Shown here: positions 1,089-48,975 of the stretch, piece after piece
Position numbering within the stretch: position 1 is the stretch's first letter
How the letters are laid out: each line of letters begins with the position of its first letter
From: a virus
DNA length: 51,841 bases
Strand: one strand, 5' to 3'
Virus record (IMG/VR): IMGVR_UViG_3300042887_003127
Coordinates: 1-51,841 of that record
Translations under genes and position numbers: made by a program
Notes under the pieces: generated by a model
Told to the model about the DNA's origin: nothing
The model's database searches: none
What the model saw: only the letters and a program-made list of their open reading frames with translations

Positions 1089-1113
1089 TTTTTGTATCTC
1101 CATTTACAAGTAT

Positions 1114-1142
1114 ATTATAAACTCTACACTTAATAAAGTCAA
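1114..1142 (-). promoter_or_regulatory. Sigma70-type promoter for gp55
   Basis: On the minus strand TTGACT (1142-1137) is separated by exactly 17 bp from TATAAT (1119-1114). The predicted start of transcription is near 1107, about 19 bases before the chosen gp55 start. This near-consensus promoter would let host RNA polymerase express the late sigma factor early. Confidence 0.8.
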
Positions 1143-1149
1143 ATAAATA
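1142..1149 (+). promoter_or_regulatory. Late promoter AATAAATA before the baseplate operon
   Basis: AATAAATA on the plus strand matches the T4 late consensus TATAAATA and the NATAAATA form described for marine T4-like phages. It sits 23 bases before the first structural ATG, which has a strong AAAGGAG ribosome-binding site at 1157-1163. Its first base is also the outer base of the gp55 promoter -35 element on the other strand. Confidence 0.7.
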
Positions 1150-1172
1150 ATACAATAAAAGGAGTAATAATA

Positions 1173-2401: not shown

Positions 2402-2402
2402 C

Positions 2403-25357: not shown

Positions 25358-25966
25358 ATGCAGAATAAAGAAACAACAGGCATACATATTGAGGGACACC
25401 TTAAGATCTATGACCCTACAAGTAATGAAGTGTACGTTAATAAACGTAATGCAATTCATTATGAAAATATGAGCATTGCGCTAGCAAGCAGCATTGCAAA
25501 CAGAGGTCAGGGATTTATATACCAGATGGGTTTTGGCAACGGCGGAACAGCAGTTGATCCAACTGGAATTATTACATACTTATCACCAAATAGTTCAGGA
25601 TCAAATTCTAGTTTATATAATGAAACATTTACAAAAGTTGTAGATGATAATTCTAAGAATAATTTAGATCCAACCCGTAATTATATTGATTCTCGACATA
25701 CTGTAGGTAAAAATTATACCGATGTTTTTATTACATGTTTGTTAGATTACAGCGAGCCAGCTGGACAGAATGCATTTGACACTTCAATTAGTAGCGACGG
25801 ATTATTTGTATTTGATGAAATTGGATTAAAATCGTATAGCGACACTGGGAATGAATTGTTATTAACACATGTTATTTTTCATCCTGTACAAAAATCGTTA
25901 AATCGATTAATTCAAATTGATTATACAGTACGTATTCAAAGTTTAACTGGCATAACAGGAGTCTAA
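25358..25966 (+). CDS. Small virion-associated protein, function unknown
   Basis: A 202-residue soluble, beta-rich protein with no membrane segment. It opens with GIHIEGHLKIYDPTSNEVYVNKRNAIHYENMSIALA and contains GQGFIYQMGFGNGGT, a pattern reminiscent of phage baseplate or fibre accessory proteins that present a short beta-sandwich. I do not recognise a named family with confidence. It follows its own late promoter, ends three bases before a tail-collar fibre gene, and sits wholly inside the fibre locus, so a virion role (fibre attachment or baseplate decoration) is the simplest inference. The ribosome-binding site is weak (GAGAG, seven bases before ATG). Confidence 0.6.
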   Translation: MQNKETTGIHIEGHLKIYDPTSNEVYVNKRNAIHYENMSIALASSIANRGQGFIYQMGFGNGGTAVDPTGIITYLSPNSSGSNSSLYNETFTKVVDDNSKNNLDPTRNYIDSRHTVGKNYTDVFITCLLDYSEPAGQNAFDTSISSDGLFVFDEIGLKSYSDTGNELLLTHVIFHPVQKSLNRLIQIDYTVRIQSLTGITGV

Positions 25967-28015: not shown

Positions 28016-29016
28016 TGACGTACATAATAAACAAGACAGATGGTACAGTACTAACTGAAATTATTGACGGAAATATTGATCAATCTACAACTGATTTAAC
28101 GTTAATTGGTAAAAGTGCTAATGCATATGGCGAATATATAAATGAAAATTTAGTTCGATTATTAGAAAATTTTGCAAATTCAACACAACCTAAACAATCT
28201 ATACCTGGGCAATTATGGTTTGACACGTTAGAAAAAAGATTAAAAGTGTATGACGGTAAAGGATATAAAGTTTCAGGCGGTACTATTGTAGCTCCAATGA
28301 TGCCTAGTTCAATTTCTCAAGGTGATATTTGGATCAAGTCAAATTCACGTCAACTTTGGTGCAATAATGGAGTTGAAACATTTTTAGTAGGCCCTCAAGA
28401 TTCGTCAATGACTGGAATTAGTGTAGTGTCAGTGTATGGTACTGATCAAAATTCTCATACAGTAATAAAATTAATGATTGATGACACGTTAGTTGCAGTA
28501 ATAAGTAGTGACTCATTTATTATTGACACAAATAGTTTGCCTGTAATTTATGGTTGGCCATCTACTGAAGCTGGCCCGGATCCAATAAATCAAGGTTTGA
28601 ACTTAGTTAGTAATAATCCAAATTCAGAAAATGAAACAAAACCATTAATTACAAATGTTAGGACATCGTCTGGCACTAATGATGTAGTTAATAATGAACG
28701 ATTACTCACTGCAGTTAAGCAAACTGCACCGTATGCAATTTCGTTAGATATTTCCGGTTTGCATAATGCAGCAAACGATGCTGAAAAACATACTAAAATT
28801 GGATTAATGTTAGAGAAGTTATTTCCGGTTGCTGATTTTGATGTTGGCAATTTTACAGATCAGTTGCCTACATGTCGAGTGTTATGTACAGATGGCAGTA
28901 TTAAAACTGTTAGAACTTTTAAATTGTCATCAGGTACTGGTACATCAGAGGAAGATACTGTAATTAAATGGCGACAAGTAAATGACGTTATTACAGTAAG
29001 TTCGATACTAACATAG
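28015..29016 (+). CDS. Tail fibre paralogue, short
   Basis: A 333-residue protein paralogous to the genes on each side. It has the same N-terminal module: STTDLTLIGKSANAYGEYINENLVRLLENFAN, SIPGQLWFDT and KRLKVYDG, then GDIWIKSNSRQLW and a VGP motif. It lacks the tail-collar domain of its upstream neighbour. The C-terminal 80 residues (FPVADFDVGNFTDQLPTCRVLCTDGSIKTV onward) look like a separate small domain. It starts inside the upstream stop. It could be a truncated fibre, a fibre chaperone or a heteromeric fibre partner; the sequence does not decide. Confidence 0.75.
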   Translation: MTYIINKTDGTVLTEIIDGNIDQSTTDLTLIGKSANAYGEYINENLVRLLENFANSTQPKQSIPGQLWFDTLEKRLKVYDGKGYKVSGGTIVAPMMPSSISQGDIWIKSNSRQLWCNNGVETFLVGPQDSSMTGISVVSVYGTDQNSHTVIKLMIDDTLVAVISSDSFIIDTNSLPVIYGWPSTEAGPDPINQGLNLVSNNPNSENETKPLITNVRTSSGTNDVVNNERLLTAVKQTAPYAISLDISGLHNAANDAEKHTKIGLMLEKLFPVADFDVGNFTDQLPTCRVLCTDGSIKTVRTFKLSSGTGTSEEDTVIKWRQVNDVITVSSILT

Positions 29017-29025
29017 TACAATATG

Positions 29026-29033
29026 AATAAATA
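29026..29033 (+). promoter_or_regulatory. Late promoter AATAAATA before the third fibre paralogue
   Basis: AATAAATA followed by CATT, in the 37-base gap between fibre genes. The ATG lies 20 bases downstream with AAGGA at 29042-29046. Same octamer as at 1142 and 6575. Confidence 0.65.
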
Positions 29034-29053
29034 CATTAAACAAGGATACACAG

Positions 29054-30607
29054 ATGGCTTATAGCATTGACAGATATAATAGTAGTGGTAGTTCGGCAAT
29101 CATCGTTGACGACGGCACAATTAATACCACACTTGATTTAAAGCTGATCGGCAAGAATTATGCCGGTTATGGCGAAGCACAAAATGAAAATTTTGTGTGG
29201 CTGCTTGAAAATTTTGCTAGTCGTACAGCTCCGCCAAGTGCAATTATTGGGCAGTTATGGTATGACAGCAGTCTTGGAAAATTAAAAGTAAACTACGGCG
29301 CCGGTGCGTGGCGCACCGTGGCAGTAAACAACATTGTTGAAGACGGCGTTTCACCCCCAGGGTTAACCGTCGGTGATTTTTGGTGGAATTCAGTAACTGA
29401 ACGGTTATACTGCCGATCTACTAGTAACCGCGATATATATATTGGCGGTCAAGTTATAAATGCAAATACTCAATTAAAAATAACTAGCTTACCTGATGAT
29501 GTTGGTAATCCTCACCAGGTTATTGAAGCAATTGTTAACAACGTTATAACATTTATAATTAGTGAAATTGAATTTAATTTAGACACTACTGCGTTAAGCG
29601 TAGACGAAGCTACTGCGTTAAATGGATTTGCATTAATTCATAAAGGTATAACACTTTCTGGGTTAGACGCTGAAACTTCTACAATAAGTGAAACTGGTTA
29701 TAAATTTAATGGTACTGCATCTAATTCAGATAAGTTAGCAGGTACACCGGCAGAGGGTTATATTACTGTAGCTTCACCAGTGTTTCCAAACGCTGCAAAC
29801 TTTTCTGATGATGGATTTACAGTAGGACCAGGCCAAATTTTAGAAATTTATAATGAATTAGAAGTTCCTACAATTAAAAATAGAAAAAGCGAAACTATTG
29901 TATTTCAAACTACTGATTCCGTAACCCTAGAAACAAATACTGCATTAACATTAAACGGTGCTGATATTTTCCCAGGTACTAATGATGTTACTAACTTAGG
30001 CGGAATTGACAATCAGTTTCTTAATATGTATGCAGCATCATTTGAAGGTGCATTAAATGGGCATGCTACTAATGCAACGACTGAAGCAGACTTTGCTGAT
30101 TCAATTCCAGTTAGAACATCTACAGTAACTACTTGGAATACTACTACATTAGCTCCAGATGGAGTAACAATAGTTCCTATATCTTATGAAATAGCAGCTG
30201 GATCAATTTATGCAACTGAATTTGCAGGAAAAGCATATTTAGGCGTTAACGCTGACTTAGCGGAAAAATATTTAGCAGATGACACATACGATGTTGGTAC
30301 AGTATTAATAATTGGAGGAGATGCCGAAGTTACTGCTGCACAATCAGGGCATCGTGCAATCGGTGTAGTTTCGGCAAATCCGGCATACATAATGAATGTT
30401 GGGCTAGCTAACGGCACAATAGTTGCACTAAAAGGGCGAGTTCCAGTAAAAACAACTGGGGCTATTAAAAAAGGTGATCGGTTAATTGCCACAGATACCG
30501 GTCTAGCAAAATCGTTAACAAGTGAATGTGCAAGTTTAGTTTTTGCAATTGCGCTCAATGATAGTGATAACACGGAAGGCAACACTATTGAAGCACTTAT
30601 ACTTTAA
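29054..30607 (+). CDS. Tail fibre paralogue with self-processing-like C-terminal domain
   Basis: A 517-residue fibre. Residues about 15-85 repeat the shared module (LDLKLIGKNYAGYGEAQNENFVWLLENFAS, IIGQLWYDS, LKVNYG). The middle has a shaft-like stretch with GSAT-rich sequence. From about residue 396 the C-terminal domain reads NADLAEKYLADDTYDVGTVL, then HRAIGVVSANPAYIMN and VALKGRVPVKTTGAIKKGDRL. This resembles the DxAE-containing C-terminal domains of phage appendage proteins (Peptidase_G2-like), which can release themselves after trimer folding. Whether it cleaves is unknown. It follows its own late promoter and precedes the giant adhesin gene by 19 bases. Confidence 0.8.
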   Translation: MAYSIDRYNSSGSSAIIVDDGTINTTLDLKLIGKNYAGYGEAQNENFVWLLENFASRTAPPSAIIGQLWYDSSLGKLKVNYGAGAWRTVAVNNIVEDGVSPPGLTVGDFWWNSVTERLYCRSTSNRDIYIGGQVINANTQLKITSLPDDVGNPHQVIEAIVNNVITFIISEIEFNLDTTALSVDEATALNGFALIHKGITLSGLDAETSTISETGYKFNGTASNSDKLAGTPAEGYITVASPVFPNAANFSDDGFTVGPGQILEIYNELEVPTIKNRKSETIVFQTTDSVTLETNTALTLNGADIFPGTNDVTNLGGIDNQFLNMYAASFEGALNGHATNATTEADFADSIPVRTSTVTTWNTTTLAPDGVTIVPISYEIAAGSIYATEFAGKAYLGVNADLAEKYLADDTYDVGTVLIIGGDAEVTAAQSGHRAIGVVSANPAYIMNVGLANGTIVALKGRVPVKTTGAIKKGDRLIATDTGLAKSLTSECASLVFAIALNDSDNTEGNTIEALIL

Positions 30608-30626
30608 TATTTAAAAAGGAAAAATA

Positions 30627-33600
30627 ATGGCAACACTACCAGATACAACCAGTTTTAATGCAATGCAGGTACGGATTTCAAGAATTCTTGAAATTGGTGA
30701 CGGCGATTATGGTTACGGACAAATTGCATTAAGTCAACAATTAGCTGCAAATAATCCGGCTAATTTGCTCGATTTTCAGAATTTAAGAACTGATATTTTA
30801 GCAGCAAAACAACATCAAGTTGGTGTACTTACTACACTACCAATTACTCCAATTACTAACTCAATTACTGCCACACAATGGGCTGCATTTGAAACAGTTC
30901 TTAAACAAGTAGAAGCAAACCGTACAGTTACTCCACCTGCTGCACAAGCAGCTCGCGATATATTAGTATCGGATACTATTACAACTGATTGGAATGGCAC
31001 AACTACCCAAATTGTAACTGCTGAATTTGTTGATGAAGATGCAATTCGTAACTACTTTAATACAGGTAGCTCAATTGAATTTTCTGCGTCACGTTCTGCA
31101 GGCGCGTCTACAACAAAAAATTCATCATGGACTAGTTTATTAGCAAACATTGGTGTAATAAGTTTTAAAAGAAGTGCAACTTCGTCAACTAAATCAGTTG
31201 GAACATCAATTGGGTATTCAAGATTAACTGATTCTTATCAAGTTATATTTCAAAAATTAACTACTGATACACTTAAACCAAACACTTATAAACTAAGTGC
31301 AAGATTAGTTGACAGTAGAACAATTGAATTTACTGTTGAATTTACAGATGGATCTACATCATTGTCAGATCCAAACGTTAATGGAACATTAACAAGCAAT
31401 GTTAGGGCGTATCATGCAAGTGGTGTATTTGTAGCAGTTCCTGCTCCATCTGCAGTTGGCGAAATGTCTGCAGGACAAGCTAATCCGTCATTTATTATTA
31501 CACGTGACTCAACTTCAATTGGTGAAGGTCAAACTGGAGTAACATTTACTGTTACTACTGTAAACTTTGACGATGCTCCGTTATATTGGAATGTAAAAGG
31601 ATATGGCATCACTGCTGCTGATTTTGTTGAAGCTACGTTACAAGATAGCTTTGCTATTACTAGCGGATTTGGATCGTTTTCTTTAACTGCAAGCGATGAC
31701 AAATTTACTGAAGGAACTGAAAAATTTGTAGTTGAAATTCGAGTAGCACCTGAATTAACATCTCCGGTAGTAGCAACAATTGCATCAGCACCTGAGATAA
31801 TTAACGATTTATCATTAACAGTACCTGTGATACGAACAACACCATCTTACAATTTTGTATCACAATCAGTTAGTGCAACTGCTGAAGGTAACACAATTAC
31901 ATATACAGTTGTAACAACCGGTGTAGCAGATAATACACAATTATATTGGGCAACAAAAGGGTTAACAGCTGGTATAACTGCTGCTGATTTTGAAGACAAC
32001 ACATTAACTGGTACAATTACAATTTGGAACAATACTGCTGATATTGTTAGAACATTAGTTGATGATAAAGCAGTTGAACAAATTGAATCTTTCCAAATTG
32101 TGTTATCTACAATTGATGCTACTACCGGAGTTAAAAGACAAGTACAAATCAGTTATCTAATGCAAATTGTTGATACTGCAGTGGTTGTTCCGGATGTTCC
32201 TTACTTAGTATCTACAAGTTTAACAACAGTACCTGAAGGTTCGGTGCTAGCAGTTAACTATAAAATTACAACACCAAAATTACCAATTAACACTAGATTA
32301 TATTGGCAAACATTTTCTGATATTGGAACAATAAACGGAAGTGATTTCAATGACGGGTTGTTGTCTGGATCAGTATTAATATCAAATCAAATTGGTGTTG
32401 TTCCTCGTTATTTAAAAGCAGACGGTGTAACAGAAGGTCTTGAATCGTTTCATTTAACATTCTATTCTGATGCAGCAATGACTAACGAGCTACAAGAAGG
32501 TCCAACTGTATCAATAACAGAATCTGTTAGTTATTTAATCACAAAAGATTATAGTGCAATGGCCGAAGGTGGATTGGGCATTAATTTTACAGTTAATACT
32601 CCTGCATTAGAGAATGGTAAGAATTTATATTATAGAGTAGTATCTGAATTTGGCACAGTTGATGCAGATGATCTAGTTGATGGTGTATCTGGAACATTTG
32701 CAGTTAATAACAACGTTGGTAAATTTTTAATTCGTGCAAAAGACGACACGTTAACTGAAGGTGTTGAACAGTTCCGTGTCGAAATTCGTGAGACTGACGG
32801 TGTAAGTGGCGCAATTTTAGTATCAAGTCAAAGTTCAACAATTACTGAACCAAATGTTTATGATATTATATCACAAAGATCTGCAATTACTGAAGGCCAA
32901 ATTGGTGTTGAGTTTACAATTAAGACTCCAAAAGTAGCAAACGGTACTGTGTTATACTGGTCAACTGTAACTGATACTGGAACTATTACTGCAAGTGATT
33001 TTACTGATAACACATTAACTGGTACAGTTACTATCACTAATAACATCGGCTCTATTACAAGAACTGCAGTAGTTGATGCGTTAACTGAAGGTGATGAGTC
33101 TTTCCATTTAGTATTAAAAACAGGATCTGCATCTGGTACAACTGTTAAAATTGGCGATCCGGTTACAATCTCAGAATATGTAAAATATTCAATTACTCCA
33201 TCGACTCAGTCAATTGCAGAAACTGGAGCAGGTGTAACATTTAATATTACTACTCCAAAAGTATCAAACGGCTCGTTAGTATATTGGTCAATCTTACCAG
33301 GTTCTGGTAACATTACTGCAGATGATTTCATTGTTTCCGATGCACAAGGCGGGTCGGCACAACGATTAACTGGTAGAGTTTCTATTCAAAACAATAGAGG
33401 TTCGTTTATTATTGCTGCTAGACCTGATAGTTTAACTGAAGGTAGTGAAACATTCCAAGTTGAATTAAGATTAGACGATATTGACGGACCAGTTGAACAA
33501 ACTACCCGAGAAATTACAATATCTGAAACTGTTAACTATCAAGTTATTGCAGGTACATCAACTGTAACAGAAGGACCAGGCAGTGTAACATTTACTGTTA

Positions 33601-36600
33601 AAACACCAAAAGTTGCTGATAACACTGAATTGTACTGGACCACTCGTTCTGCGTCTGGCACAGTGTCTGAAGCAGATTTTAAAGATAGTACGTTACAAGG
33701 TAAAGTTACAATTGTTGGTAACGAAGGTACTATTATAAGAACTGCTAAAGACGATGTATTAACTGAAGGTGTTGATGCGTTTATTATAGAACTTAGACTT
33801 ACATCATACGGATCTCCTGTAGTTGTTTCAAGTGTACCTGTTACTATCCAAGATACTTCAATTGACATTGAAGTACCGGAACCAGAGGCACCGGTATATT
33901 CTGTTACAACTAGTGCAACAAGTATAATTAAAGGTGGCGCAGTAGTGTTTACTGTCCATACTGAAAACGTAACAAATACTACAAATTTATATTGGACATT
34001 ATTTAGAAGTCCCGGGTTAGAAATTACTGATTTTGTTACTGCAGTATCTCCAACTGCAGTAAATGTTACGTATGATGATGGATCAACACCAGCAAATGGT
34101 ACTAAAGAAATTACAGTTACTACTCAATCATCGTCGCCTGGAACAGGTGTGCGTTCATTTATCTTTGAATTACGCACTGGCTCAGTATACGGAAAAGTAG
34201 TAGCAACTAGTACAACCGCTGTTACTATTTCAGATGAAATAAAATATGCAATTAGTCCATCGACTCGTTCTATTGCTGAAGGAGCTGGACTTGTAACATT
34301 TACAGTTACTACGCCTGCATCAGCAATTGGAAACACATTAGGGTGGACCGTTGTTGGCAATACTGGAACATTAGACGCAATTGATTTTAATGATGGTCAA
34401 ACACCAACTCCCGGTCCGGGTTCGTTAACAGGCGATGTTTCAATTACCGGTGTTGGTACAGGTGCCGGTCGCTATGGTACTGGTACAATTACATTGTATG
34501 CATCTGCTGACGAAACCACTGAAGGTAATGAAACATTCCATATTGAATTAGCTAATGGTTTAACCCCAATTGTTTTAGGATCTCCGTCACCAATTATTGC
34601 AATTTCGGAAGTTGTTGAGTATGTATTAAGTGCTAACACTGCATCTATATCAGAAGGAGGCGACGGTGTAACATTTACATTAAATACACCAAAACTTAAA
34701 GCTAATTCTATATTTAACTATACTATTGTTGGTAAAACTGGTTCAATTGCAGCTCAGGACTTTGTTACAACTGCTGGCGGAAGTACTACACTTTCATCGT
34801 TAACTGGGACATTTACAGTTAACAGCACAACTAATTCCGGTACCTTTACACTGTATGCAGCATCAGATGCCGGTACAGAAGGTGATGAATCATTTACTAT
34901 TAGTTTAACTTCGGCAACTGGACAATCGATTGCAATTGGAGGAACAGGATCGCCTACTGTAACAATCACTGAAACTGTTGCTTATACTATTACTCCAACT
35001 GCATCTCAAATTAGTACAGTACAAGTAACTTCATTTGCAGAAGGCATTCCTGCGTATTTTAAAGTTACTACTCCAAAAATGGACGATGGTGATTTATTCT
35101 GGGTAATAACACCAACTCCAAGTACAAGCGGTATTAATGAGAATGATTTTGCTGACAAACAAATGTCAGGTACTGTTTCAATTGTTAAAAATAAAGGTAC
35201 AATTATCATTCCGCATGCTACTGATAGCAATACAGAAGGTAATGAAACTTATTCTTTAGTATTAAAACGTGATTCAGTTGAAGGCACCACTGTTACTACA
35301 AGTCCAACTGTACTAATTACTGAATCTATTTCATATACAATTATTTCGGATACAACTGTAATTGCAGAAGGCGGATCAGTAACGTTTACTGTTACAACTC
35401 CATTTGCTGATAACGGAGAAACATTAAACTGGACAGTTGTGCAAGTTACCGGAACAATGATATCCGCTGATTTTGTAGCATTTTCTGGAACAACACTACC
35501 AGTTGCAAATAGTACTGCTATAATTACAGTAACTGCTGCACCTGATGCACAAATTGAACCAAACGATACATTTACAATTGCTGTAACAAAAAGTGGTTTA
35601 CCGCTATCACCGTTAACAGGAGTTATTCCAACTATAACAGTTTCTGATGGTACTAATTATACATTAACATCAGATGTAACTACTATTGCAGAAAGTGGAT
35701 CAGCAGTAACATTTACAGTGCGTACTCCTGGTATATCAAAAGAAACTGCATTATACTGGTCTATTCAAGGAGTTGCCGGAGCAATTGATCCTGCTGATTT
35801 TGTAAAAGCAACCGGTACAGTTACTATTACTGGACATGTAGGAACATTTGGGGTAACTGCAGCACCTGATAAATTGCCAGCTGAAAATGATTCATTTAGT
35901 ATTGTATTAAGATCTGGTTCTCAAACTGGACCAATTATTAATATTGATAATACTCCAATTATTACTATAACTGATATTGAATTTTATACAATTAAAGCTG
36001 ATAAAACTAAAATTGCTGAAGACGGTGTTCCGGTAACATATACTATTACTACACCAACTGCAGCTAATGGTTCGCGGTTATACTGGACTGTAATTGGGCC
36101 TAAGGGTCTTACACCAGCAACTAAAAACTTAACACCTGCAGATTTTACAATTGCAACATTACCAAACGGTACGTTAAATGCAAACGCTACTAGTGCAGTA
36201 GTAACAAATAAAACTGTAACAATACAACTTGCTGCAGCGATTGATCAAGCAACTGACGGTGATAAAGAGTTTTATATTCAAGTAATGAACACTGCAACTG
36301 GTATACCAATTGCATTTGCAGCACCGTGTCCAAAAGTTGTAATTACAGATACATCAGGAAAACCTGCTGTAGTAACTAAAACAATAGAGATAACAGTGCA
36401 GTCTGCTCCGGCTCGTATTATTGAATCTGGTGCTGGCGAAATTATAATTGCAATAACACCATTTAATACTAATGTTTTAAAACCGTTAGATGTAAAATGG
36501 AAAATTTCTACACGCACTCCACAAGGAATCTCAACAGCACTATCAACTTCTGCAAGCACTCCGTTTAAATTAGTTAACAATGGAACATTTACAACCGTAA

Positions 36601-38483
36601 TAGATCCAACATCACCGTTAGTGTCAACTGCTAAGTTAAAACTATTTGCAAACAAATTAGCAGTAAACACATCAGGTTCGTTCCAAGTTGAATTTACAGT
36701 TACAGATCCTGTTACTAACACCCCGTTCATTATTACTACTAAACCTATTGAAGTTATGAAAGGTGATGACTTTATTGAAATTGATCAAAAGACAGGAAAT
36801 CAATGGTGGCCAAAAACTGCCGGTGTTAATTTTTATCAAATTGAATTAATTGGCGGCGGCGGCACGGGCGGCGGCGCAGGCGCAGCGTTTGATGGCAGTG
36901 CAGGCGGCAATGCAGCTTCAGTTAAGGGTATAATTGATCTTACTAATTTTGACGGATTGTCGTTTTCGTTTATTCCCGGCGGCGTATCTACACCTTCAAC
37001 TAACACAGTGTCTGGTATAACCGGTGATTGGGGCGGACTTGGCGGCGCAGGTGGCGCAGGTATTGCAATGTATATTGGAGGAACTAATAAAAAACCACTA
37101 ACCAACACCCCATGGGTAACAGTTGGCGGCGCAGGTGGTGGCGGTGCAGGGAGATTGAATGGAACGTTACCGGGCACCCCTGGTTCAACTGGTGTTCAGC
37201 TTATAGGTAAATATGCAGCAACTTATGTTTCTGCTGGCGTGTCTGCTAATGCTAAAGCTAGCCCTGGTTCAGGTGGCGGCGGCGGCGGAGGCGGTTTAGT
37301 TGATAAACAAGCATATAATAAATCTCCTAATGCAGTATCTCGAAATGGGGGCACTGGTGGTAACTCGTATGTTCCGCCAGAAAGTTGTTTTGTATATATT
37401 CCAAACGGCGGCGGATTAGGCGGCGCCGGTGTGCAGTTAATTGCAGCAACACCGCAGGAAGGATCAAGCGATACTACGACTATTATAATTAAAGGTAAGA
37501 CTTATGGTATACCAAGATTCTTTACAGATCATGCAATTGCTCCGCCAGATGCTACGACACGTACTGACGCATTCTTTGTATCATGGCCTAATGTAGTAAG
37601 TAGCAAAACAAAACCGCAAGTTCAGAATGGTCCTGCGGTAACGGCAGGACAGCCTATACCGCAAGGAGACTATATTTTAGACATATGGACAGACGGTTAC
37701 GGTTTTGTATCAGTAGGTGATACTACAACACCGTGGGATGGAACAAAGAAAGTAACAACTTATAACATTACGCTAGCAGCTGAATGGAATAATAGAATTA
37801 CACTTTCCTATAAATGGTTTAAAAATACAGCAAATGTGTGTAAGACTGTTGGTATAGCTGTAACGTTACGTCGTAGGGTTGATGAGATAGCTTCAGATGC
37901 CAATTATCTTTGGACAACTAGATCACCCGGTTCTTATATAAAACCAACACTTGGTTCTGGAACGGCGGGACAACCTGCTAAAGTACGAATTTCGTGGGGG
38001 CCATCTGTACCAACTAATACAGCAGTAATACCAACTGGAAAAGCAACATATCCAACAACACCAGCAGTACCGTCGATACCGCCAGCGGCGTATAATTTAG
38101 GTTCGTATATATCAGATAGAGCGACTGATGGTTATACATCGTATTGGGTATATCCAAAGGCAGACTGGTCAACACAGCCGTGGATTCCGGCATTGTACTG
38201 GGAAGATTTGAACATATTAGTAACAACTGGTATGGTATTACGCGCAGTTATTGTTGATCATCAAGCTGGTAGTATTGTTTTGACTGATAATAACGGAGTG
38301 TCATGGACACACATTCCAACTAGCGGCAATTGGAATAGCGCCATCCCAATTCCAACAACACTTAATATAATTGTTAAAATTGTATTTAATGCTGGCTATT
38401 ATGGCTATGGTGGTGCTGATATTAAAAACAGTGCAGGTGCAGTTGTGTGGAATACACGTAATCCATGGAAACATTCAGTATAG
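30627..38483 (+). CDS. Giant adhesin-like tail fibre with Calx-beta-like repeats and glycine-rich tip
   Basis: A 2618-residue protein, last gene of the structural operon. The first 285 residues form a unique N-terminal region (MATLPDTTSFNAMQVRI onward), probably the virion anchor. Residues about 287-1910 are 14 repeats of 100-115 residues, each with S-I-x-EG...VTFTVTTP, LYWT, TADDF, G-x-V-T-I and D...TEG-E-F-x-V-L elements. These are features of Calx-beta domains, which often bind calcium through their acidic residues. A degenerate fifteenth copy follows. Residues about 2075-2272 are glycine-rich islands (GGGGTGGGAGAAF and similar), like the exposed loops of phage adhesins. The last 340 residues are Trp- and Pro-rich beta sequence. 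A receptor-binding fibre is the likely role. Confidence 0.8.
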   Translation: MATLPDTTSFNAMQVRISRILEIGDGDYGYGQIALSQQLAANNPANLLDFQNLRTDILAAKQHQVGVLTTLPITPITNSITATQWAAFETVLKQVEANRTVTPPAAQAARDILVSDTITTDWNGTTTQIVTAEFVDEDAIRNYFNTGSSIEFSASRSAGASTTKNSSWTSLLANIGVISFKRSATSSTKSVGTSIGYSRLTDSYQVIFQKLTTDTLKPNTYKLSARLVDSRTIEFTVEFTDGSTSLSDPNVNGTLTSNVRAYHASGVFVAVPAPSAVGEMSAGQANPSFIITRDSTSIGEGQTGVTFTVTTVNFDDAPLYWNVKGYGITAADFVEATLQDSFAITSGFGSFSLTASDDKFTEGTEKFVVEIRVAPELTSPVVATIASAPEIINDLSLTVPVIRTTPSYNFVSQSVSATAEGNTITYTVVTTGVADNTQLYWATKGLTAGITAADFEDNTLTGTITIWNNTADIVRTLVDDKAVEQIESFQIVLSTIDATTGVKRQVQISYLMQIVDTAVVVPDVPYLVSTSLTTVPEGSVLAVNYKITTPKLPINTRLYWQTFSDIGTINGSDFNDGLLSGSVLISNQIGVVPRYLKADGVTEGLESFHLTFYSDAAMTNELQEGPTVSITESVSYLITKDYSAMAEGGLGINFTVNTPALENGKNLYYRVVSEFGTVDADDLVDGVSGTFAVNNNVGKFLIRAKDDTLTEGVEQFRVEIRETDGVSGAILVSSQSSTITEPNVYDIISQRSAITEGQIGVEFTIKTPKVANGTVLYWSTVTDTGTITASDFTDNTLTGTVTITNNIGSITRTAVVDALTEGDESFHLVLKTGSASGTTVKIGDPVTISEYVKYSITPSTQSIAETGAGVTFNITTPKVSNGSLVYWSILPGSGNITADDFIVSDAQGGSAQRLTGRVSIQNNRGSFIIAARPDSLTEGSETFQVELRLDDIDGPVEQTTREITISETVNYQVIAGTSTVTEGPGSVTFTVKTPKVADNTELYWTTRSASGTVSEADFKDSTLQGKVTIVGNEGTIIRTAKDDVLTEGVDAFIIELRLTSYGSPVVVSSVPVTIQDTSIDIEVPEPEAPVYSVTTSATSIIKGGAVVFTVHTENVTNTTNLYWTLFRSPGLEITDFVTAVSPTAVNVTYDDGSTPANGTKEITVTTQSSSPGTGVRSFIFELRTGSVYGKVVATSTTAVTISDEIKYAISPSTRSIAEGAGLVTFTVTTPASAIGNTLGWTVVGNTGTLDAIDFNDGQTPTPGPGSLTGDVSITGVGTGAGRYGTGTITLYASADETTEGNETFHIELANGLTPIVLGSPSPIIAISEVVEYVLSANTASISEGGDGVTFTLNTPKLKANSIFNYTIVGKTGSIAAQDFVTTAGGSTTLSSLTGTFTVNSTTNSGTFTLYAASDAGTEGDESFTISLTSATGQSIAIGGTGSPTVTITETVAYTITPTASQISTVQVTSFAEGIPAYFKVTTPKMDDGDLFWVITPTPSTSGINENDFADKQMSGTVSIVKNKGTIIIPHATDSNTEGNETYSLVLKRDSVEGTTVTTSPTVLITESISYTIISDTTVIAEGGSVTFTVTTPFADNGETLNWTVVQVTGTMISADFVAFSGTTLPVANSTAIITVTAAPDAQIEPNDTFTIAVTKSGLPLSPLTGVIPTITVSDGTNYTLTSDVTTIAESGSAVTFTVRTPGISKETALYWSIQGVAGAIDPADFVKATGTVTITGHVGTFGVTAAPDKLPAENDSFSIVLRSGSQTGPIINIDNTPIITITDIEFYTIKADKTKIAEDGVPVTYTITTPTAANGSRLYWTVIGPKGLTPATKNLTPADFTIATLPNGTLNANATSAVVTNKTVTIQLAAAIDQATDGDKEFYIQVMNTATGIPIAFAAPCPKVVITDTSGKPAVVTKTIEITVQSAPARIIESGAGEIIIAITPFNTNVLKPLDVKWKISTRTPQGISTALSTSASTPFKLVNNGTFTTVIDPTSPLVSTAKLKLFANKLAVNTSGSFQVEFTVTDPVTNTPFIITTKPIEVMKGDDFIEIDQKTGNQWWPKTAGVNFYQIELIGGGGTGGGAGAAFDGSAGGNAASVKGIIDLTNFDGLSFSFIPGGVSTPSTNTVSGITGDWGGLGGAGGAGIAMYIGGTNKKPLTNTPWVTVGGAGGGGAGRLNGTLPGTPGSTGVQLIGKYAATYVSAGVSANAKASPGSGGGGGGGGLVDKQAYNKSPNAVSRNGGTGGNSYVPPESCFVYIPNGGGLGGAGVQLIAATPQEGSSDTTTIIIKGKTYGIPRFFTDHAIAPPDATTRTDAFFVSWPNVVSSKTKPQVQNGPAVTAGQPIPQGDYILDIWTDGYGFVSVGDTTTPWDGTKKVTTYNITLAAEWNNRITLSYKWFKNTANVCKTVGIAVTLRRRVDEIASDANYLWTTRSPGSYIKPTLGSGTAGQPAKVRISWGPSVPTNTAVIPTGKATYPTTPAVPSIPPAAYNLGSYISDRATDGYTSYWVYPKADWSTQPWIPALYWEDLNILVTTGMVLRAVIVDHQAGSIVLTDNNGVSWTHIPTSGNWNSAIPIPTTLNIIVKIVFNAGYYGYGGADIKNSAGAVVWNTRNPWKHSV
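31486..36360 (+). repeat. Array of about 14 Calx-beta-like coding repeats
   Basis: Each unit is roughly 320-350 bases and starts with a codon pattern for (Y/F)xI-x5-S-I-A-EG. Some DNA stretches are close copies, for example around 31985 and 32996 where cacattaactggtaca recurs, while most copies differ at many positions. This suggests old duplication with some recent exchange. Confidence 0.75.
36849..37440 (+). repeat. Glycine-rich, GGC-rich low-complexity islands
   Basis: Runs of ggcggc triplets code Gly tracts separated by beta-strand-like segments. The DNA is clearly more GC-rich than its neighbours. Such islands form the exposed recognition loops of known phage adhesins; triplet runs can also change length easily. 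Confidence 0.7.
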
Positions 38484-38510
38484 CAGTTAGTAAAAAGTAG
38501 TACAAATGAT

Positions 38511-38532
38511 AAAGCCGGCAATTGCCGGCTTT
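38511..38532. terminator. Bidirectional terminator hairpin between convergent genes
   Basis: A perfect 22-base palindrome with arms AAAGCCGGC and GCCGGCTTT around AATT. It sits in the 56-base gap between the end of the adhesin gene (plus) and the end of thyX (minus). The T-rich end of each arm gives a short U run in either direction, so it can stop transcription from both sides. Confidence 0.8.
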
Positions 38533-38539
38533 GTTGTGA

Positions 38540-39307
38540 TTAGTGTTTGTAAAAATTAAAAAAGTGTTGATGCCATTTAAGTTTTTTAGGTTCAACAATT
38601 TCTTCTTTAATAGGTTCTAAAACTGGTTCTTCCTTATAAACAAAGTCATTTACCATTGGAAATACTGCGCTAATTGCTTGCGCACATGCTACAGCAACTT
38701 GTTTGTGTTCAAGCTGTGTATCCACGTTACTGCGCACTTGTATGTAGTGAATCCATGAGCGCAACGTCCCGTTAACATACACACGACTTTTAGTATTGCC
38801 TTCTGGAAGAACAACACGAGCTTGTTCTTTAGCAATCCCGTTGCTAATTGCCCATTCATATTGTGCTTTTGCTGAATTAATATGAGCTTCTTGTCTTAGA
38901 TGCCATTCGTCATTAATCGCCTCTTCTTCTGCAGTATTAATTGTAATTGAATTTTGACGATTTTTAGGATCTTGAAATCTAGCATCGCGTATTTCAAAAG
39001 ACAGATCGTTTGTTGGATCTGCATAGCGTTGACTAAACTCTTGGAATCTAAATGAAGCGTGACGTAGTAATTGACGTGCAATATCGCGGGTGGTATTAAT
39101 TTCTAAACACACATTAACCATTTCAAGCGGTGACCAATGTTTATGTTTAATTAAGTAGTTGATAAGTTTTTCTGAAGTTTCTGTATTAAACTGATTTGAC
39201 GGATTACTTACCCGAGCGCAAAACGCAATAAGTTCTTGTGCATCAGTAATTCCTAATTCAGCAAATTCTTCAGTTGGTTGAGAATATGATACTAATTTAA
39301 TGTTCAT
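38540..39307 (-). CDS. thyX: Flavin-dependent thymidylate synthase ThyX
   Basis: A 255-residue enzyme that makes dTMP from dUMP using methylene-tetrahydrofolate, FAD and NADPH. The ThyX signature region is present at residues 82-95: RHASFRFQEFSQRY. The canonical motif is RHRx7S; here the third position is Ala84 instead of Arg, while Arg82, His83, Ser92, Arg94 and Tyr95 remain. Downstream features also fit the family: KEQARVVLPEGNTKSRVYVNGTLRSWIHYIQVR. The last 40 residues after PMVNDFVYKE are a charged extension. The start overlaps the upstream gene's stop (ATGA). ThyX is common in marine T4-like phages and supports DNA synthesis during infection. Confidence 0.92.
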   Translation of the reverse strand: MNIKLVSYSQPTEEFAELGITDAQELIAFCARVSNPSNQFNTETSEKLINYLIKHKHWSPLEMVNVCLEINTTRDIARQLLRHASFRFQEFSQRYADPTNDLSFEIRDARFQDPKNRQNSITINTAEEEAINDEWHLRQEAHINSAKAQYEWAISNGIAKEQARVVLPEGNTKSRVYVNGTLRSWIHYIQVRSNVDTQLEHKQVAVACAQAISAVFPMVNDFVYKEEPVLEPIKEEIVEPKKLKWHQHFFNFYKH

Positions 39308-40820: not shown

Positions 40821-41999
40821 TTATGCCTTTTCTTTTGAAAACTCGTAATAGCAAGTTTCACCAAATGGGGCTACGATTGTATCATTACCGTGTATAATAA
40901 ACACAGTATCGCAATACGACTCATCGCCCCAGCTTCCAAAAGGATACCCATCAGTAAAACATAGGAACTTTTTAGGATTAATGTCATTTTCTTTCATATA
41001 TTCCCAGTTAGCATCAAAGTCAGTACCACCGCCACCTTTTGGTTGATACTCATCAAACTCGCTTATAGTATAACCAGTAAATGATGCCTCGTTATAAACT
41101 TGTGTATCAAAGCACCATAACTTAATGCTAAAGTCCTGATACTCTTGCATGATGCCTTTAATCTCACTTAAGAAATCTCTAGCTTGATCATCGCCAATTG
41201 ACCCTGACATATCAATTGCAACACAGATATCAATTGTTTCGTCATAGTTAGTACCTGGCAAAATTGCATTCATGTGCCAACCTTTTCTGTTAGGACGCAT
41301 AAACGAAAAGTCATTTTTAAGAGTACTTTGTATTTGCTGACGTAAAATCTCACGCCAGTTCATTTTAGACTCAGTAAGATCTTTAATTAAACGTGCAATA
41401 CTAGCTGGAGTATTACCTGCACCTGCTGCTTGTGCTGCAGTCATTGTAGCTTCACGAATTTCATCACGAATCTTTTTCAATTCTTCTTTACTGTATGATG
41501 GACGACCGTTTGACCCTGAACTTTCCCAGTCAATATGTTCGTCAAGCATCTCACCAATTTTAGAAAGTGAATCTTCATCGTGATCTTCTAGTAACTTATC
41601 ATATATCTCTTCAGAACCCATACCGTAATAGTTAGTGTCGTGGAAGATTTTAATAACAGGCGGAACTTCGCCAATCTTATCACGAATTAACTGACCATTT
41701 ACATTATAGTCACATGCAATATTAAAGATTTTAGGATTGCGACCATCACGACGTGACATGTGATCAAAAACGTTGTGTAGGATTTCATGACCAATAACAA
41801 ATTCAATTTGTTTTACAGTTAACGGTTCAAAGAACTCACGATTATAAAAGATATGACGACCGTCAGTTGCTGCAGTTGGACACCAGTCGGATCCGTCTAC
41901 AATTTTTAAACGTGTTGCCATAGTACCAAAGAAAGGATGGCGTAATAGTAAGCCTACGCGAGCTACGATAATTTTATCAACAATTGAATCTAAAGCCAT
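40821..41999 (-). CDS. Metallopeptidase-like plus VWA domain protein, MoxR partner
   Basis: A 392-residue two-domain protein. Residues 71-80 read HEILHNVFDH, an HExxHxxxxH zinc motif, followed by NIACDYNVNGQLI as in DUF2201-type metallopeptidase-like proteins. Residues about 258-392 form a von Willebrand A domain with the MIDAS signature DMSGS (Asp263, Ser265, Ser267) and GGGGTDFD. Such proteins usually work with a MoxR-type AAA+ ATPase, and one lies immediately upstream (42070-43161). The combination suggests a chaperone or remodelling machine, possibly with protease activity. The gene has its own strong promoter and an AGGAG site six bases before ATG. The leader holds a three-codon reading frame ATG CAG GAG TAA that covers the ribosome-binding site. 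Confidence 0.85.
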   Translation of the reverse strand: MALDSIVDKIIVARVGLLLRHPFFGTMATRLKIVDGSDWCPTAATDGRHIFYNREFFEPLTVKQIEFVIGHEILHNVFDHMSRRDGRNPKIFNIACDYNVNGQLIRDKIGEVPPVIKIFHDTNYYGMGSEEIYDKLLEDHDEDSLSKIGEMLDEHIDWESSGSNGRPSYSKEELKKIRDEIREATMTAAQAAGAGNTPASIARLIKDLTESKMNWREILRQQIQSTLKNDFSFMRPNRKGWHMNAILPGTNYDETIDICVAIDMSGSIGDDQARDFLSEIKGIMQEYQDFSIKLWCFDTQVYNEASFTGYTISEFDEYQPKGGGGTDFDANWEYMKENDINPKKFLCFTDGYPFGSWGDESYCDTVFIIHGNDTIVAPFGETCYYEFSKEKA

Positions 42000-42029
42000 G
42001 AATTACTCCTGCATAATTATAAAGTACAA

Positions 42030-42058
42030 AGTATAACACCGCCTTGCGGCGGTGTCAA
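42030..42058 (-). promoter_or_regulatory. Sigma70-type promoter with palindromic spacer before the VWA gene
   Basis: On the minus strand TTGACA (42058-42053) and TATACT (42035-42030) are 17 bp apart. The spacer and the end of the -35 form an inverted repeat, ACACCGCC and GGCGGTGT around GCAA. The same bases as RNA make an 8-bp hairpin with a GNRA loop at the end of the upstream transcript. It may be an operator, a processing or stabilising hairpin, or both. Confidence 0.75.
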
Positions 42059-42069
42059 CTGTTTTGGTA

Positions 42070-43161
42070 TTACTGACCGCTTGCAGCAGTAATGTATTTG
42101 CCGTACTTGCTGTGGAAATCATCAAAGCACGCAATGTCGTCTGGATCAATTTGCAATTTGTATGAGCATAACGCAAGTTTAGTACCCATAATTGCAATTT
42201 CAGTTTCAAAGTTGTTCATCATAAACAAAAAGTAATTGTTCATTGCTGTGTTTTTGTTAGCAGCCTTTTTATTGAAAAGTTCTTTCAACTCATAGCACAT
42301 ACTAACAGTTAGTGAATACATTGCTGAAATCTCTTTAGTTTCACAATGTGTAATTTTACCCTCAAGTACAGCGCGTGGATCAGGAAGTTTACTTGAAAAC
42401 TGTCTGTGTGCCATAAATTTAATAGCAAGCCCTTCACCAATTGAACCAGCAACTAAGTCAGCTAGTGTGTCTGAGTCAGTATCGCCGTCTGTTAACAACT
42501 CGCTAACAAAGCTCCATGAACGTGGTGTAGCAAACGCTCTATCTGCTGATTTTGAATCAAAAGTGTATAAATCACTTTTGCAAGCAGTTAAATAACCAAC
42601 AACATCTGGATGTACATTGTTGTCTGTGGCCCATTCAAAGTAGTCATCCCATTCAACAGCCATTTCTAAGTGGATAAATCTGTTAGCTAATGGAGCTGGC
42701 ATACGATAAGTAACACCTTTGTCTGTTTCTCTGTTACCAGCAGCAACAATAACAACGTTGTCTGGTAATTCGTACTGACCTACGCGACGGTTTAAAATAA
42801 GCTGATAAGCAGCAGCCTGTACACTCGGTGCAGCAGAATTCATCTCATCTAAGAACAAAATAATCATTTTGTGTTTTTCAGCAAATGATTTGCTTGGTAA
42901 CTCTGATGGTGGAGCCCATACCATTGTTTGATCTACTGAGTCAAAGTATGGAATACCTTTGATGTCTGTTGGTTCCCATAAACTTAAACGCACGTCAGTA
43001 ACATGAGCATTTAACTCGGTACCAAGTTGTTTAATAATATCTGATTTACCAATTCCTGGAGGTCCCCAAATAAACAATGGACGTTTGCTGCTAAATGCTT
43101 TGCGTAAAGATTTTTTAGCGCCTTTTGGCCCGACTGTACGTGATGCGATGTTGTTGCTCAT
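42070..43161 (-). CDS. MoxR/CobS-like AAA+ ATPase
   Basis: A 363-residue ATPase. Walker A GPPGIGKS is at 33-40, Walker B LFLDEMN at 102-108, sensor-1 AAGNRE at 140-145, and the arginine-containing NRFIHLE at 160-166. The sequence between them (DIKGIPYFD, PSVQAAAYQLILNRRVG) is typical of the MoxR/CobS clade. Marine T4-like phages often carry a gene labelled cobS; this one pairs with a VWA-metallopeptidase rather than with cobalamin genes, so a MoxR-type remodelling ATPase is the better name. It is preceded by a strong promoter and a leader of about 90 bases with GAGGT before ATG. Hexamer formation and VWA partnership are inferred from the family. Confidence 0.88.
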   Translation of the reverse strand: MSNNIASRTVGPKGAKKSLRKAFSSKRPLFIWGPPGIGKSDIIKQLGTELNAHVTDVRLSLWEPTDIKGIPYFDSVDQTMVWAPPSELPSKSFAEKHKMIILFLDEMNSAAPSVQAAAYQLILNRRVGQYELPDNVVIVAAGNRETDKGVTYRMPAPLANRFIHLEMAVEWDDYFEWATDNNVHPDVVGYLTACKSDLYTFDSKSADRAFATPRSWSFVSELLTDGDTDSDTLADLVAGSIGEGLAIKFMAHRQFSSKLPDPRAVLEGKITHCETKEISAMYSLTVSMCYELKELFNKKAANKNTAMNNYFLFMMNNFETEIAIMGTKLALCSYKLQIDPDDIACFDDFHSKYGKYITAASGQ

Positions 43162-43256: not shown

Positions 43257-43284
43257 ATTATACAGTATTTTTAGCAAACGTCAA
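43257..43284 (-). promoter_or_regulatory. Sigma70-type promoter for the MoxR-like gene
   Basis: On the minus strand TTGACG (43284-43279), 16 bp, TATAAT (43262-43257). Predicted start near 43250 gives an untranslated leader of about 90 bases. It lies in the 136-base gap between 43162 and 43297; the rest of that gap shows nothing recognisable. Confidence 0.75.
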
Positions 43285-45883: not shown

Positions 45884-46317
45884 TAGTTGCCTGATCGGTT
45901 AACGTTAAGGAATCCAAAGTCCTGATCTGATATATCAATGCCTTCGGCTGCTGCAGCGTTGGTGCAAATATCTCTGTACCAACGACCTACTATTTCTTCT
46001 TCAGGATCGCCGTCAAAGCCATACCCTTCTTGTTTTAATTTTTCAATCCAGTGATCATTCCAATCAATTTCAAAAAAACCATTTCTAATGTTACTTGGAT
46101 TAACTTTAAACCCAATTACATCAACCCATGGTTCATGTTTTAAGGTAGCTTTTTCTTTGTCAGTTAGCGGTTCTTTTTCAATTACTTTAGCTTTTGGCTT
46201 AACTTTTGCTTTAGGTTTAGCTTTTTGTTTAGCTTTAATTGCTTCTTGTACTTCTTGTTGATGTTTTAGTTCTGGATTTTCACCACTAAACACTTTTTTT
46301 ATAAAATTTCCAAACAT
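45883..46317 (-). CDS. Hypothetical protein with Lys/Ala/Pro-rich segment
   Basis: A 144-residue protein. Residues about 28-50 are a repetitive basic stretch (AKQKAKPKAKVKPKAKV), like histone H1-type tails, which could bind nucleic acid. The C-terminal 80 residues are a folded, acidic domain (WVDVIGFKVNP, GFFEIDWNDHWIEKLKQEGYGF, VGRWYRDICTNAAAAEGIDI). It starts within the stop of queE and ends within the start of the exonuclease gene, so all three are translationally coupled. Function unknown. Confidence 0.65.
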   Translation of the reverse strand: MFGNFIKKVFSGENPELKHQQEVQEAIKAKQKAKPKAKVKPKAKVIEKEPLTDKEKATLKHEPWVDVIGFKVNPSNIRNGFFEIDWNDHWIEKLKQEGYGFDGDPEEEIVGRWYRDICTNAAAAEGIDISDQDFGFLNVNRSGN

Positions 46318-47159
46318 TATGTTCCCCAGTTGTTACCGAAGAGAGGGAGGTGAAGTCTATCACTGTATCTCAATCCGTGCGTTAATGCAAGTTCTGCTAC
46401 TCGTCGATTATTAAGGTTGTATACATCAGTTACACCGCCTACTGGCATTAAGTAAATATCACCTCTAAATCCGTTGTCTTTATATAGCTGCATTACTTCA
46501 CGCGCTTCTTCTACGTCTTCTTCAGATGCTACTACAAATTTTAAAAATGAACTATGCCCTGAAAACTGATACTCGGTTACTATTTCAGGACGTATTGCCT
46601 TTTCTCTAGGCTCGCCACTTACACTTAGTTTAGGACTAACTGAAAACGTAGTTTGATACCGTCTTTCCATGTATAAGTAGTTTTCAAAATCTTGTAACAG
46701 TTCTTGTGTACCATTAGTTTCGAATGTAATGTTTTTTAAGTCTGCTAATAATGGATGTCTTAGTAATTCTGGATATATTTGTTGCCAACCTGGTAATAAT
46801 GGTTCGCCGCCTGTAATTACTAAGTGTACTCCACCCCATTCACCGTTAGGTAACAGCTCAATCATTTTAGCTGCAACTTCGTCTATTGACATCGCTGGAC
46901 TTAGATGTTTAAACTTTGGATGCCAACTTGCATAACTGTCACAGCCAGTAGTTACTAATGGTAGTTCATCATATGAATGATATTGTATACCATTATTAGC
47001 AATCGCATCTGCTTGTACACTTAGTTCACCTGCTGGCATTCCAAACCCTCTACAAGAAAAATTGCACCCAAACGTTCTAAGGAACACACTTGGCACTCCC
47101 ATAAATCTACCCTCTCCTTGTAGAGAGTAAAATATTTCTGATATCTTAATTTTTGACAT
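46317..47159 (-). CDS. queE: 7-carboxy-7-deazaguanine synthase QueE (radical SAM)
   Basis: A 280-residue radical SAM enzyme converting carboxy-tetrahydropterin to CDG, the third step toward preQ0. Family features: ISEIFYSLQGEGRFMGVPSVFLR at the start, cluster cysteines Cys32 and Cys36 (GCNFSC), VITGGEPLL near 114-122, and the QueE-typical FETNGT. The third cluster cysteine appears to be Cys73 in TGCDSYASW, leaving 36 residues where canonical QueE has two. With FolE encoded nearby, it points to 7-deazaguanine made for phage DNA modification or host tRNA. QueD and QueC are not in the window. The ribosome-binding site AAAGGA lies in the upstream homing endonuclease gene. Confidence 0.9.
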   Translation of the reverse strand: MSKIKISEIFYSLQGEGRFMGVPSVFLRTFGCNFSCRGFGMPAGELSVQADAIANNGIQYHSYDELPLVTTGCDSYASWHPKFKHLSPAMSIDEVAAKMIELLPNGEWGGVHLVITGGEPLLPGWQQIYPELLRHPLLADLKNITFETNGTQELLQDFENYLYMERRYQTTFSVSPKLSVSGEPREKAIRPEIVTEYQFSGHSSFLKFVVASEEDVEEAREVMQLYKDNGFRGDIYLMPVGGVTDVYNLNNRRVAELALTHGLRYSDRLHLPLFGNNWGT

Positions 47160-48303: not shown

Positions 48304-48975
48304 TTATTTGTTTACAATACTCATAAATTCTGCACGAGTAGTTGGATCGTTTTTAAATGCACCACCTAACTTACTAGTAATAGTAGTGCTACCTGTATCT
48401 TCTACACCTCTTGCAGCAACACAATAGTGTTTTGCATCAATTACTACTGCAATATTATCAGTATCTAAAATGTATTCCAGTGCATGGAATACTTGTTCTG
48501 TTAATCTTTCTTGTACTTGTGGACGTTTTGCAAAGTATTCAACTACGCGATTAATTTTGCTTAATCCAAGTACAACATCTTTTGGAATGTAACCTACTGT
48601 TGCAAACCCGTCAATTACTACAAAGTGATGTTCGCAGTTACTTTGTACGTTAATGTTGCGTTCAATTAACATTTCATTGTATCCCATCTTATTTTGAATA
48701 GTAGTACATTTGGGAAACGCATCATAATCAAGACCCCAAAATATTTCGTTGACAAACATTTTTGCAACACGTTTAGGAGTGTCTGCTAAACTGTCATCTG
48801 TTAAGTCTAAACCTAAAGTTACCATAATATCATAAAACTTGTCCTGAATGATATTAATCTTTTCTGATGATGTTAATATTTTTTCAGTTACCGGAGTTTC
48901 TACTCCTAAACTTACTAAATGATTGTGTATTTCTAAACCTAATTCTGAATCGGTTTTTGTTTTATTAAAGCTCAT
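48304..48975 (-). CDS. folE: GTP cyclohydrolase I (FolE)
   Basis: A 223-residue enzyme converting GTP to dihydroneopterin triphosphate, the entry to folate and 7-deazaguanine synthesis. The zinc ligands and active-site signatures are intact: SNCEHHFVVIDG (Cys114, His116, His117), GLSKINRVVEYFAKRPQVQERLTEQ and HYCVAARGVEDTGS (Cys185). The N-terminal 40 residues are a variable helix. Here it most likely feeds QueE, and perhaps folate for ThyX. It is transcribed from a consensus promoter just upstream and has an AGGAAA ribosome-binding site. Confidence 0.95.
   Translation of the reverse strand: MSFNKTKTDSELGLEIHNHLVSLGVETPVTEKILTSSEKINIIQDKFYDIMVTLGLDLTDDSLADTPKRVAKMFVNEIFWGLDYDAFPKCTTIQNKMGYNEMLIERNINVQSNCEHHFVVIDGFATVGYIPKDVVLGLSKINRVVEYFAKRPQVQERLTEQVFHALEYILDTDNIAVVIDAKHYCVAARGVEDTGSTTITSKLGGAFKNDPTTRAEFMSIVNK

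Follow-up and report, generated by a model that had tools for sequence, protein, structure and literature searches.

The stretch of DNA analyzed here, hereafter the window, is the IMG/VR virus record IMGVR_UViG_3300042887_003127 at its full length of 51,841 bases, probably a fragment, in which contractile-tail genes occupy the plus strand and genes of metabolism and replication the minus strand. Side by side on the minus strand are the two genes that are the subject of this report, one encoding a MoxR-type AAA+ ATPase and the other a protein that joins a zincin-like metallopeptidase domain to a VWA domain; each is preceded by its own sigma70-type promoter, and a hairpin is nested in the promoter of the VWA gene [Table 1]. 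The first-pass annotation of this DNA had placed both open reading frames (ORFs) there and had read them as a MoxR ATPase and an HExxHxxxxH-VWA protein with a full metal-ion-dependent adhesion site (MIDAS), and our analyses confirmed it.

Table 1. Features of the ATPase/VWA locus in the window (positions are those of the window)
Feature	Position	Strand	Description
MoxR-type AAA+ ATPase, 363 amino acids	42070..43161	(-)	identified by ORF, Pfam, PHROG 1297, and conserved residues
DUF2201-family protein, 392 amino acids	40821..41999	(-)	N-terminal zincin-like metallopeptidase domain (HExxHxxxxH, residues 71-80), C-terminal VWA with MIDAS (residues ~255-390)
sigma70-type promoter of the ATPase gene, TTGACG-16-TATAAT	43257..43284	(-)	conserved in 67/71 distinct loci
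sigma70-type promoter of the VWA gene, TTGACA-17-TATACT	42030..42058	(-)	TG before the -10 box; conserved in 69/70 distinct loci
hairpin, 8-base-pair stem and 4-nucleotide loop	42036..42055	(-)	fills the -35/-10 spacer of the VWA promoter, just past the ATPase stop codon
neighbor, 98 amino acids	40261..40557	(-)	PHROG 13789; relatives near the pair in other jumbo phages; family in 10/24 compared genomes or loci, window included
neighbor, 221 amino acids	39596..40261	(-)	PHROG 15894; relatives near the pair in other jumbo phages; family in 10/24 compared genomes or loci, window included

The ATPase matched PF00004 (9e-8), AAA_3 (9e-7), AAA_5 (4e-6), and PHROG 1297 (1e-94). In the residue-conservation alignments of both proteins, from which sequences shorter than 85% of the query length were dropped, the ATPase residues G36, K39, D105, E106, N143, R161, and R214 were identical in 16/16 representatives. 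These are the Walker A (G36/K39), Walker B (D105-E106), sensor 1 (N143), and arginine (R161, R214) residues, and the set found in MoxR-type AAA+ ATPases is intact in the window. The structure model of the ATPase (predicted local distance difference test, pLDDT, 88.5) matched NorQ and CbbQ among small single-domain structures with Z of 13-15; subfamily rows lie within ~2 Z of each other, with dynein rows above them, and do not separate the MoxR subfamilies. RavA and CobS are not among the listed structure rows, which excludes nothing. Among proteins of solved structure, Midasin is the closest by sequence to the ATPase family profile (3e-26). In phage APECc02 (L155 17485-18962), the annotated start of the ATPase looks too late: the ORF open from 17709 has the Walker A residues that the annotated gene lacks, and an overlapping gene of 97 amino acids is the one named MoxR ATPase.

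In the VWA protein, both DUF2201 domains of Pfam scored above their curated cut-offs, PF13203 (DUF2201_N, 'putative metallopeptidase') at 3e-40 with 138.8 bits against 23.2 and PF09967 (DUF2201, 'VWA-like') at 3e-14 with 53.9 bits against 26.4, and PHROG 1314 matched at 2e-108. The zinc motif reads HEILHNVFDH; its three histidines and the MIDAS residues D263, S265, S267, T326, and D350 were identical in 19/19 representatives of less than 80% identity. By pattern search, HXxxHxxxxH was present in 123/123 distinct homologues, and DxSxS in 120/123, the remaining three being cut by a contig end. The full set of zinc-metallopeptidase residues, i.e., HExxH with a further metal ligand and the catalytic Glu, was found in the window and in 122 of the 123 homologues, which is indicative that the window VWA protein may be a zinc metallopeptidase. 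A structure model of moderate confidence (pLDDT 77.8) recovered the VWA fold with Z of 11-12 in rows that cover the VWA half alone, so the metallopeptidase half was barely tested by it. PHROG 1314 and many RefSeq phage records (e.g., NC_008720 gp25, NC_031039 gp029) carry the label 'HNH endonuclease'; we rejected this label for the window VWA protein, for which no HNH family was listed in Pfam at E up to 1.

The two genes travel together. Of 149 viral loci retrieved for their likeness to one or the other protein, which form one broad clade, 136 hold both genes, and all 13 one-gene loci end at a contig edge where the partner is expected; counted by distinct contigs, both are present in 116/129, plus the window. 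Both genes were also found in 16/16 named phages from unlike groups, of which 13 were hand-picked from match lists and prior knowledge and three (AR9, RM378, and LPJP1) were added later as divergent, partial matches. The pair is directly adjacent in eight phages (N4, Atu_ph07, 121Q, S-TIM5, phiA009, Phosso, AR9, and RM378), separated by 1 to 9 genes in six (PEV2, phiTE, SCTP-2, phiFa, PA5oct, and G), and split between opposite strands, ~3.5 kilobases apart, in APECc02. In Listeria phage LPJP1 (L225 7102-9845) it is in pieces: the VWA-family match runs over three ORFs beside a short ATPase match, and the frames look interrupted. A further 35/35 loci, five of them on plasmids, carry both genes on one strand, with a gap of more than 1 kilobase in eight; some of these repeat named phages (L163 is N4, L174 is 121Q, and L197 is phiTE) and others are nearly identical to one another. 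A metallopeptidase-vWA partner is thus encoded near the ATPase, and the association in relatives, the lack of which the first-pass annotation had named as refuting its proposal, supports the predicted two-gene machine.

Maximum-likelihood trees of the two proteins recovered the same main clades, including the same phage clade of 22 rows, and both group cyanophage S-TIM5 and a viral relative with the copies of Synechocystis and Thermus plasmids. The trees, whose agreement was judged by eye, differ in the placement of phiFa and of the N4-like and Burkholderiales-plasmid copies, and some branches are long. Judged from these sequences, the ATPase and VWA genes are co-inherited. The spread of the pair is wide: in a set of 50,697 phage records, 758 and 813 have a match to the respective proteins. 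The pair turned up in Vequintavirinae, in a cyanophage, in phages of Thermus and Rhodothermus, in AR9, and on plasmids, for which five of the 69 matching records were inspected. On the Thermus oshimai plasmid pTHEOS01 (L172, 5916-13142), the MoxR and VWA genes are closely packed with those for a large unknown protein and a UvrD-like helicase, an arrangement reminiscent of a defence island. In N4-like phages, gp24/gp25 of N4, which are of the same families, belong to the 14-gene core as described in PMC4193335.

We then analyzed the promoters. Sites matching sigma70 at 11 or more of 12 positions numbered 5 in the window, where 40 random sequences averaged 3.4; the count is not above chance, and we therefore do not argue for strong promoters by count; it is position and sequence conservation that support them. 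Such a site precedes the VWA gene and the ATPase gene in nearly all distinct loci [Table 1], as compared with 10/788 random windows of 90 nucleotides and 19/788 of 150 nucleotides; the conservation count drops duplicates, loci with less than 150 nucleotides upstream, and, for the VWA gene, one locus without a measurable gap. The host-type promoter that had been proposed before each gene is thus borne out. Four related contigs hold 73 exact sigma70 patterns against 2 of the reversed pattern, which is indicative that related phages use such promoters widely. On two contigs (G001 445-3608 and G004 27054-38609, the contigs of L080 and L035), exact sigma70 promoters follow one another at intervals of a few hundred bases, a pattern that immediate-early gene clusters would be expected to show.

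The heptamer ATAAATA, which we take to resemble the T4 late promoter, is distributed differently. Five copies are on the plus strand of the window, four of them inside 900 intergenic bases and each of these just before a tail-block gene (the gene at 25358-25966, which stands behind one of them, is not itself identified); two of the five minus-strand copies are intergenic and precede genes other than the pair. The intergenic copies are at 1143, 6576, 25331, and 29027 (+) and at 47820 and 43983 (-). Before the ATPase gene and before the VWA gene, ATAAATA was found in 0/124 loci each, loci with less than 100 nucleotides upstream having been dropped. Records from other phages bear on timing as well. 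N4 gp24/gp25 are described as middle genes (PMC4193335). In PEV2, the two homologues flank one gene, and it is this gene that bears the note 'transcribed in early infection (RNA-Seq data)'. In AR9, an annotated early promoter lies directly before the ATPase gene, and the VWA gene is next; differential RNA sequencing is reported to have confirmed 33/34 predicted early promoters of this phage, and 41/43 virion proteins are placed in its late class (PMC5312081). The conserved promoters and the N4, PEV2, and AR9 records favour early or middle action over late assembly, in line with the early action first proposed for the pair. For PA5oct, we found no transcript timing in the literature.

The promoter of the VWA gene has a further feature, which is new here. 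In this clade, a perfect 8-base-pair stem with its loop is made up of the 17-base spacer and the final three bases of the -35 box, and the exact hairpin core is present in 137 of the 142 loci that hold the ATPase end. Five loci are without the exact core; two are cut by the contig end, and L131 has a spacer one base longer and a hairpin that is near-perfect by eye. In L023 and L096, which are on one contig, the hairpin is kept and is followed by a T run, and the promoter is absent. Over the 28 distinct cores, 224/224 pair cells are standard pairs and four of the eight pairs change on both sides, with a covariation score of 0.449 against 0.106 for shuffled controls, which ignore relatedness, and at most 0.144 for slid controls, which account for it. 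The four invariant pairs include three that lie inside the -35 box, with partners overlapping the TG before the -10 box, and these three are uninformative. The hairpin was found at 64/65 VWA promoters and at 0/60 ATPase promoters, in a count in which a position rule sorted four VWA promoters, the window's among them, under 'other'. Among the 73 exact promoters of the four related contigs, an 8-base-pair spacer stem occurs at the two VWA promoters only; the other spacer stems (three of 6 and two of 5 base pairs) mostly have longer loops.

The covarying arms suggest selection on the structure. A protein operator was considered as the cause of the palindrome and is disfavoured because both arms change together. 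In the simplest reading, the 3' end of the ATPase message would form an RNA hairpin, and this hairpin would be nested within the promoter that follows. Whether it is a canonical terminator is uncertain, as in most cases the -10 box, and not a T run, comes next. It has been described that a terminated polymerase can restart at nearby promoters (PMC6978380), and such a restart would offer a mechanism for the hairpin promoter.

Taken together, the domains, site residues, linkage, shared tree clades, and conserved promoters, all of which are sequence evidence, make it somewhat probable in our view that the two genes encode one ATP-driven remodelling or clipping machine which acts early to middle in infection and not mainly in late particle assembly. 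As expected from its family, the MoxR-type ATPase would form a ring, which would be in physical complex with the VWA protein and use ATP to pull on a partner by way of the MIDAS face of this protein, and the zinc-peptidase-like domain would then clip or hold the target. In the window phage, the machine would be made from host sigma70-type promoters, early to middle in infection, and its target could be a complex of host or phage proteins on which replication, or a step before it, depends.

Several observations weigh against this machine or against its timing. A gene with an early promoter may still serve later, and expression of such genes may last throughout infection in AR9 (PMC5312081). Small Vibrio N4-like phages are also reported as being without 'gp24 and gp25', although that report calls these genes rIIA/rIIB-like (PMC9525291). 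Proteolysis may not be general: the VWA protein of Atu_ph07 (L152 9208-10494), the phage given as an example when the pair was described (PMC7824862), has Gln in place of the catalytic Glu with the three histidines kept, in one genome where a sequencing error is possible, and a later check of the three divergent phages found that RM378 has Glu in place of the first His. The RM378 ATPase moreover lacks the standard Walker A pattern. This divergent RM378 pair (L224 14722-17157) is adjacent and keeps the MIDAS. Other observations fit instead a virion-assembly chaperone and protease, a pair that would fold and trim structural proteins. This role was put forward by Iyer et al. (2021; PMC7824862), who drew an analogy to p618/p892 of Acidianus two-tailed virus. 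In PA5oct, an electrospray ionization tandem mass spectrometry (ESI-MS/MS) note stands on the ATPase and not on the VWA protein; in 121Q the pair comes after a run of structural genes; S-TIM5 has a 'virion structural' gene two genes downstream of the pair; RM378 has, on the opposite strand and at a distance of two genes, a gene 'similar to major head protein'; and in the N4-like roseophage RPP1 a second structural module is reported near the gp24/gp25 homologues (PMC4193335). Nevertheless, the early-type promoters are conserved and ATAAATA is absent before the pair, the records of N4 (middle), PEV2, and AR9 (early) point away from a late class, and the pair is common to podoviruses and myoviruses with different tails and to plasmids, and we regard the assembly role as rather doubtful.

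A narrower form of the early model, in which the pair would serve counter-defence or host takeover by dismantling or cleaving a specific host complex, is possible but rather unlikely. It would fit the early promoters, two plasmid copies located near helicase, DUF262, or CRISPR genes, and the description of MoxR-vWA modules with peptidases in bacterial conflict systems (PMC7159879, PMC12839542). PADLOC matches, however, are weak and confined to the ATPase domain. Counter-defence genes are usually patchy, which counts against this role for a pair that is core in N4-like phages. Far less probable than any of these, and very improbable in our judgement, is metal insertion of the cobaltochelatase type (CobS/CobT) acting on cobalamin. 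The AAA domain has a general CobS/MoxR resemblance, but the window ATPase matches PHROG 249 at 25 bits over the AAA part alone and is not a full-length member, and neither window protein has a listed match at E up to 1 to CobS_N, CobT, or CobT_C, which we take to be the domains of cobaltochelatase CobS/CobT. In a comparison limited to seven phages, the marine T4-like P-SSM2, S-PM2, and HTVC008M matched PHROG 249 over most of its length (432-469 bits) and lacked a PHROG 1314 gene in 3/3, whereas N4, PA5oct, 121Q, and S-TIM5 carried PHROG 1297 and 1314 in 4/4 with partial PHROG 249 matches of at most 47 bits. We therefore reject the cobalamin reading. The first-pass annotation had linked the pair to the cobS-carrying marine T4-like phages and had pointed to the absence of other cobalamin genes. 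The link does not hold, the best relatives of the window proteins being in PA5oct, other jumbo phages, and unclassified viral contigs; the absence does hold among the scanned window genes, but it says little of the whole phage, as the scan left some ORFs out and the record is a fragment. Its proposal of a different, uncharacterised machine stands in so far as the pair is distinct from marine T4-like cobS, although the pairing itself had already been described (PMC7824862; for the N4-like core, PMC4193335).

Conceivably, a core early ATP-driven protease machine of unrelated phage families and plasmids dismantles a common host complex early in infection, and in one jumbo-phage clade a promoter with a selected hairpin as its spacer doses the protease subunit separately, a single element then serving both where the ATPase message ends and where the protease message starts; this extension is speculative and, taken whole, unlikely. 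We found no functional study of the pair in the open papers that were searched. N4 with its host E. coli K-12 offers a direct test, and an early or middle class redirects such experiments from late assembly. The pair deserves this attention as it is widespread, core in N4-like phages, and often labelled 'HNH endonuclease'. The hairpin promoter is a compact regulatory arrangement which could reveal how a phage balances the amounts of two subunits.

Around the pair, the 98-amino-acid neighbor is a possible accessory, and the 221-amino-acid neighbor a possible adaptor or substrate. The window also has QueE-like radical SAM and GTP cyclohydrolase genes (46317-47159 and 48304-48975; PHROG 2076 and 2197), which suggests 7-deazaguanine chemistry; a QueE-type gene is near the pair in PA5oct and Phosso as well. 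Giant plus-strand ORFs of 4117 and 2618 amino acids are located among the tail genes (9877-22230 and 30627-38483). The window had no Rfam match at gathering score, and a scan of a genome collection found no relative.

Among known systems, NorQ-NorD, CbbQ-CbbO, and RavA-ViaA also combine a MoxR-type AAA+ ATPase with a VWA protein. The targets of these systems are bacterial metalloenzymes or Rubisco, and to our knowledge the VWA partners of NorQ, CbbQ, and RavA have no HExxHxxxxH domain. Midasin (Rea1/Mdn1), the best solved sequence match of the ATPase family profile, pulls in a MIDAS-coupled manner and is a single giant eukaryotic chain without a metallopeptidase. By analogy, the phage pair would work like such MIDAS-coupled AAA+ remodellers, e.g., NorQ-NorD and Midasin. 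The likeness to CobS of T4-like marine phages is that of an AAA+ ATPase of related fold, but PHROG 249 is another family, without the VWA partner gene in the 3/3 phages tested.

Closer to the window are the phage pairs. Enterobacteria phage N4 gp24/gp25 are adjacent genes of the same families within the N4-like core; they share 25-26% identity with the window proteins, and the best sigma70-like site before gp25 scores just 7/12. N4 is described as reading its middle genes with its own RNA polymerase (PMC4193335), unlike the host-type promoters of the window. Bacillus phage AR9 gp028/gp029 is likewise an adjacent pair with HExxHxxxxH, MIDAS, and Walker A behind the annotated early promoter, and its early promoters are, unlike those of the window, read by its own virion RNA polymerase (PMC5312081). 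The pair of the group 2.2 jumbo phages (Atu_ph07 ASV44729.1/ASV44728.2) has the same two proteins in the same domain order as the window, with 40% (VWA) and 38% (ATPase) identity in the alignments, and differs at the catalytic Glu, which the window and all other compared homologues (122/123) keep. The window pair is a member of the phage MoxR/metallopeptidase-vWA kind known in jumbo phages from the work of Iyer et al. (2021), who proposed a use in virion assembly (PMC7824862). In comparison with that description, the promoter evidence argues for early over assembly use; the spread past group 2.2 jumbo phages, the separation from cobS, the co-inheritance, the early/middle evidence, the altered zinc motif in Atu_ph07 and RM378, and the hairpin promoter are what is new here.

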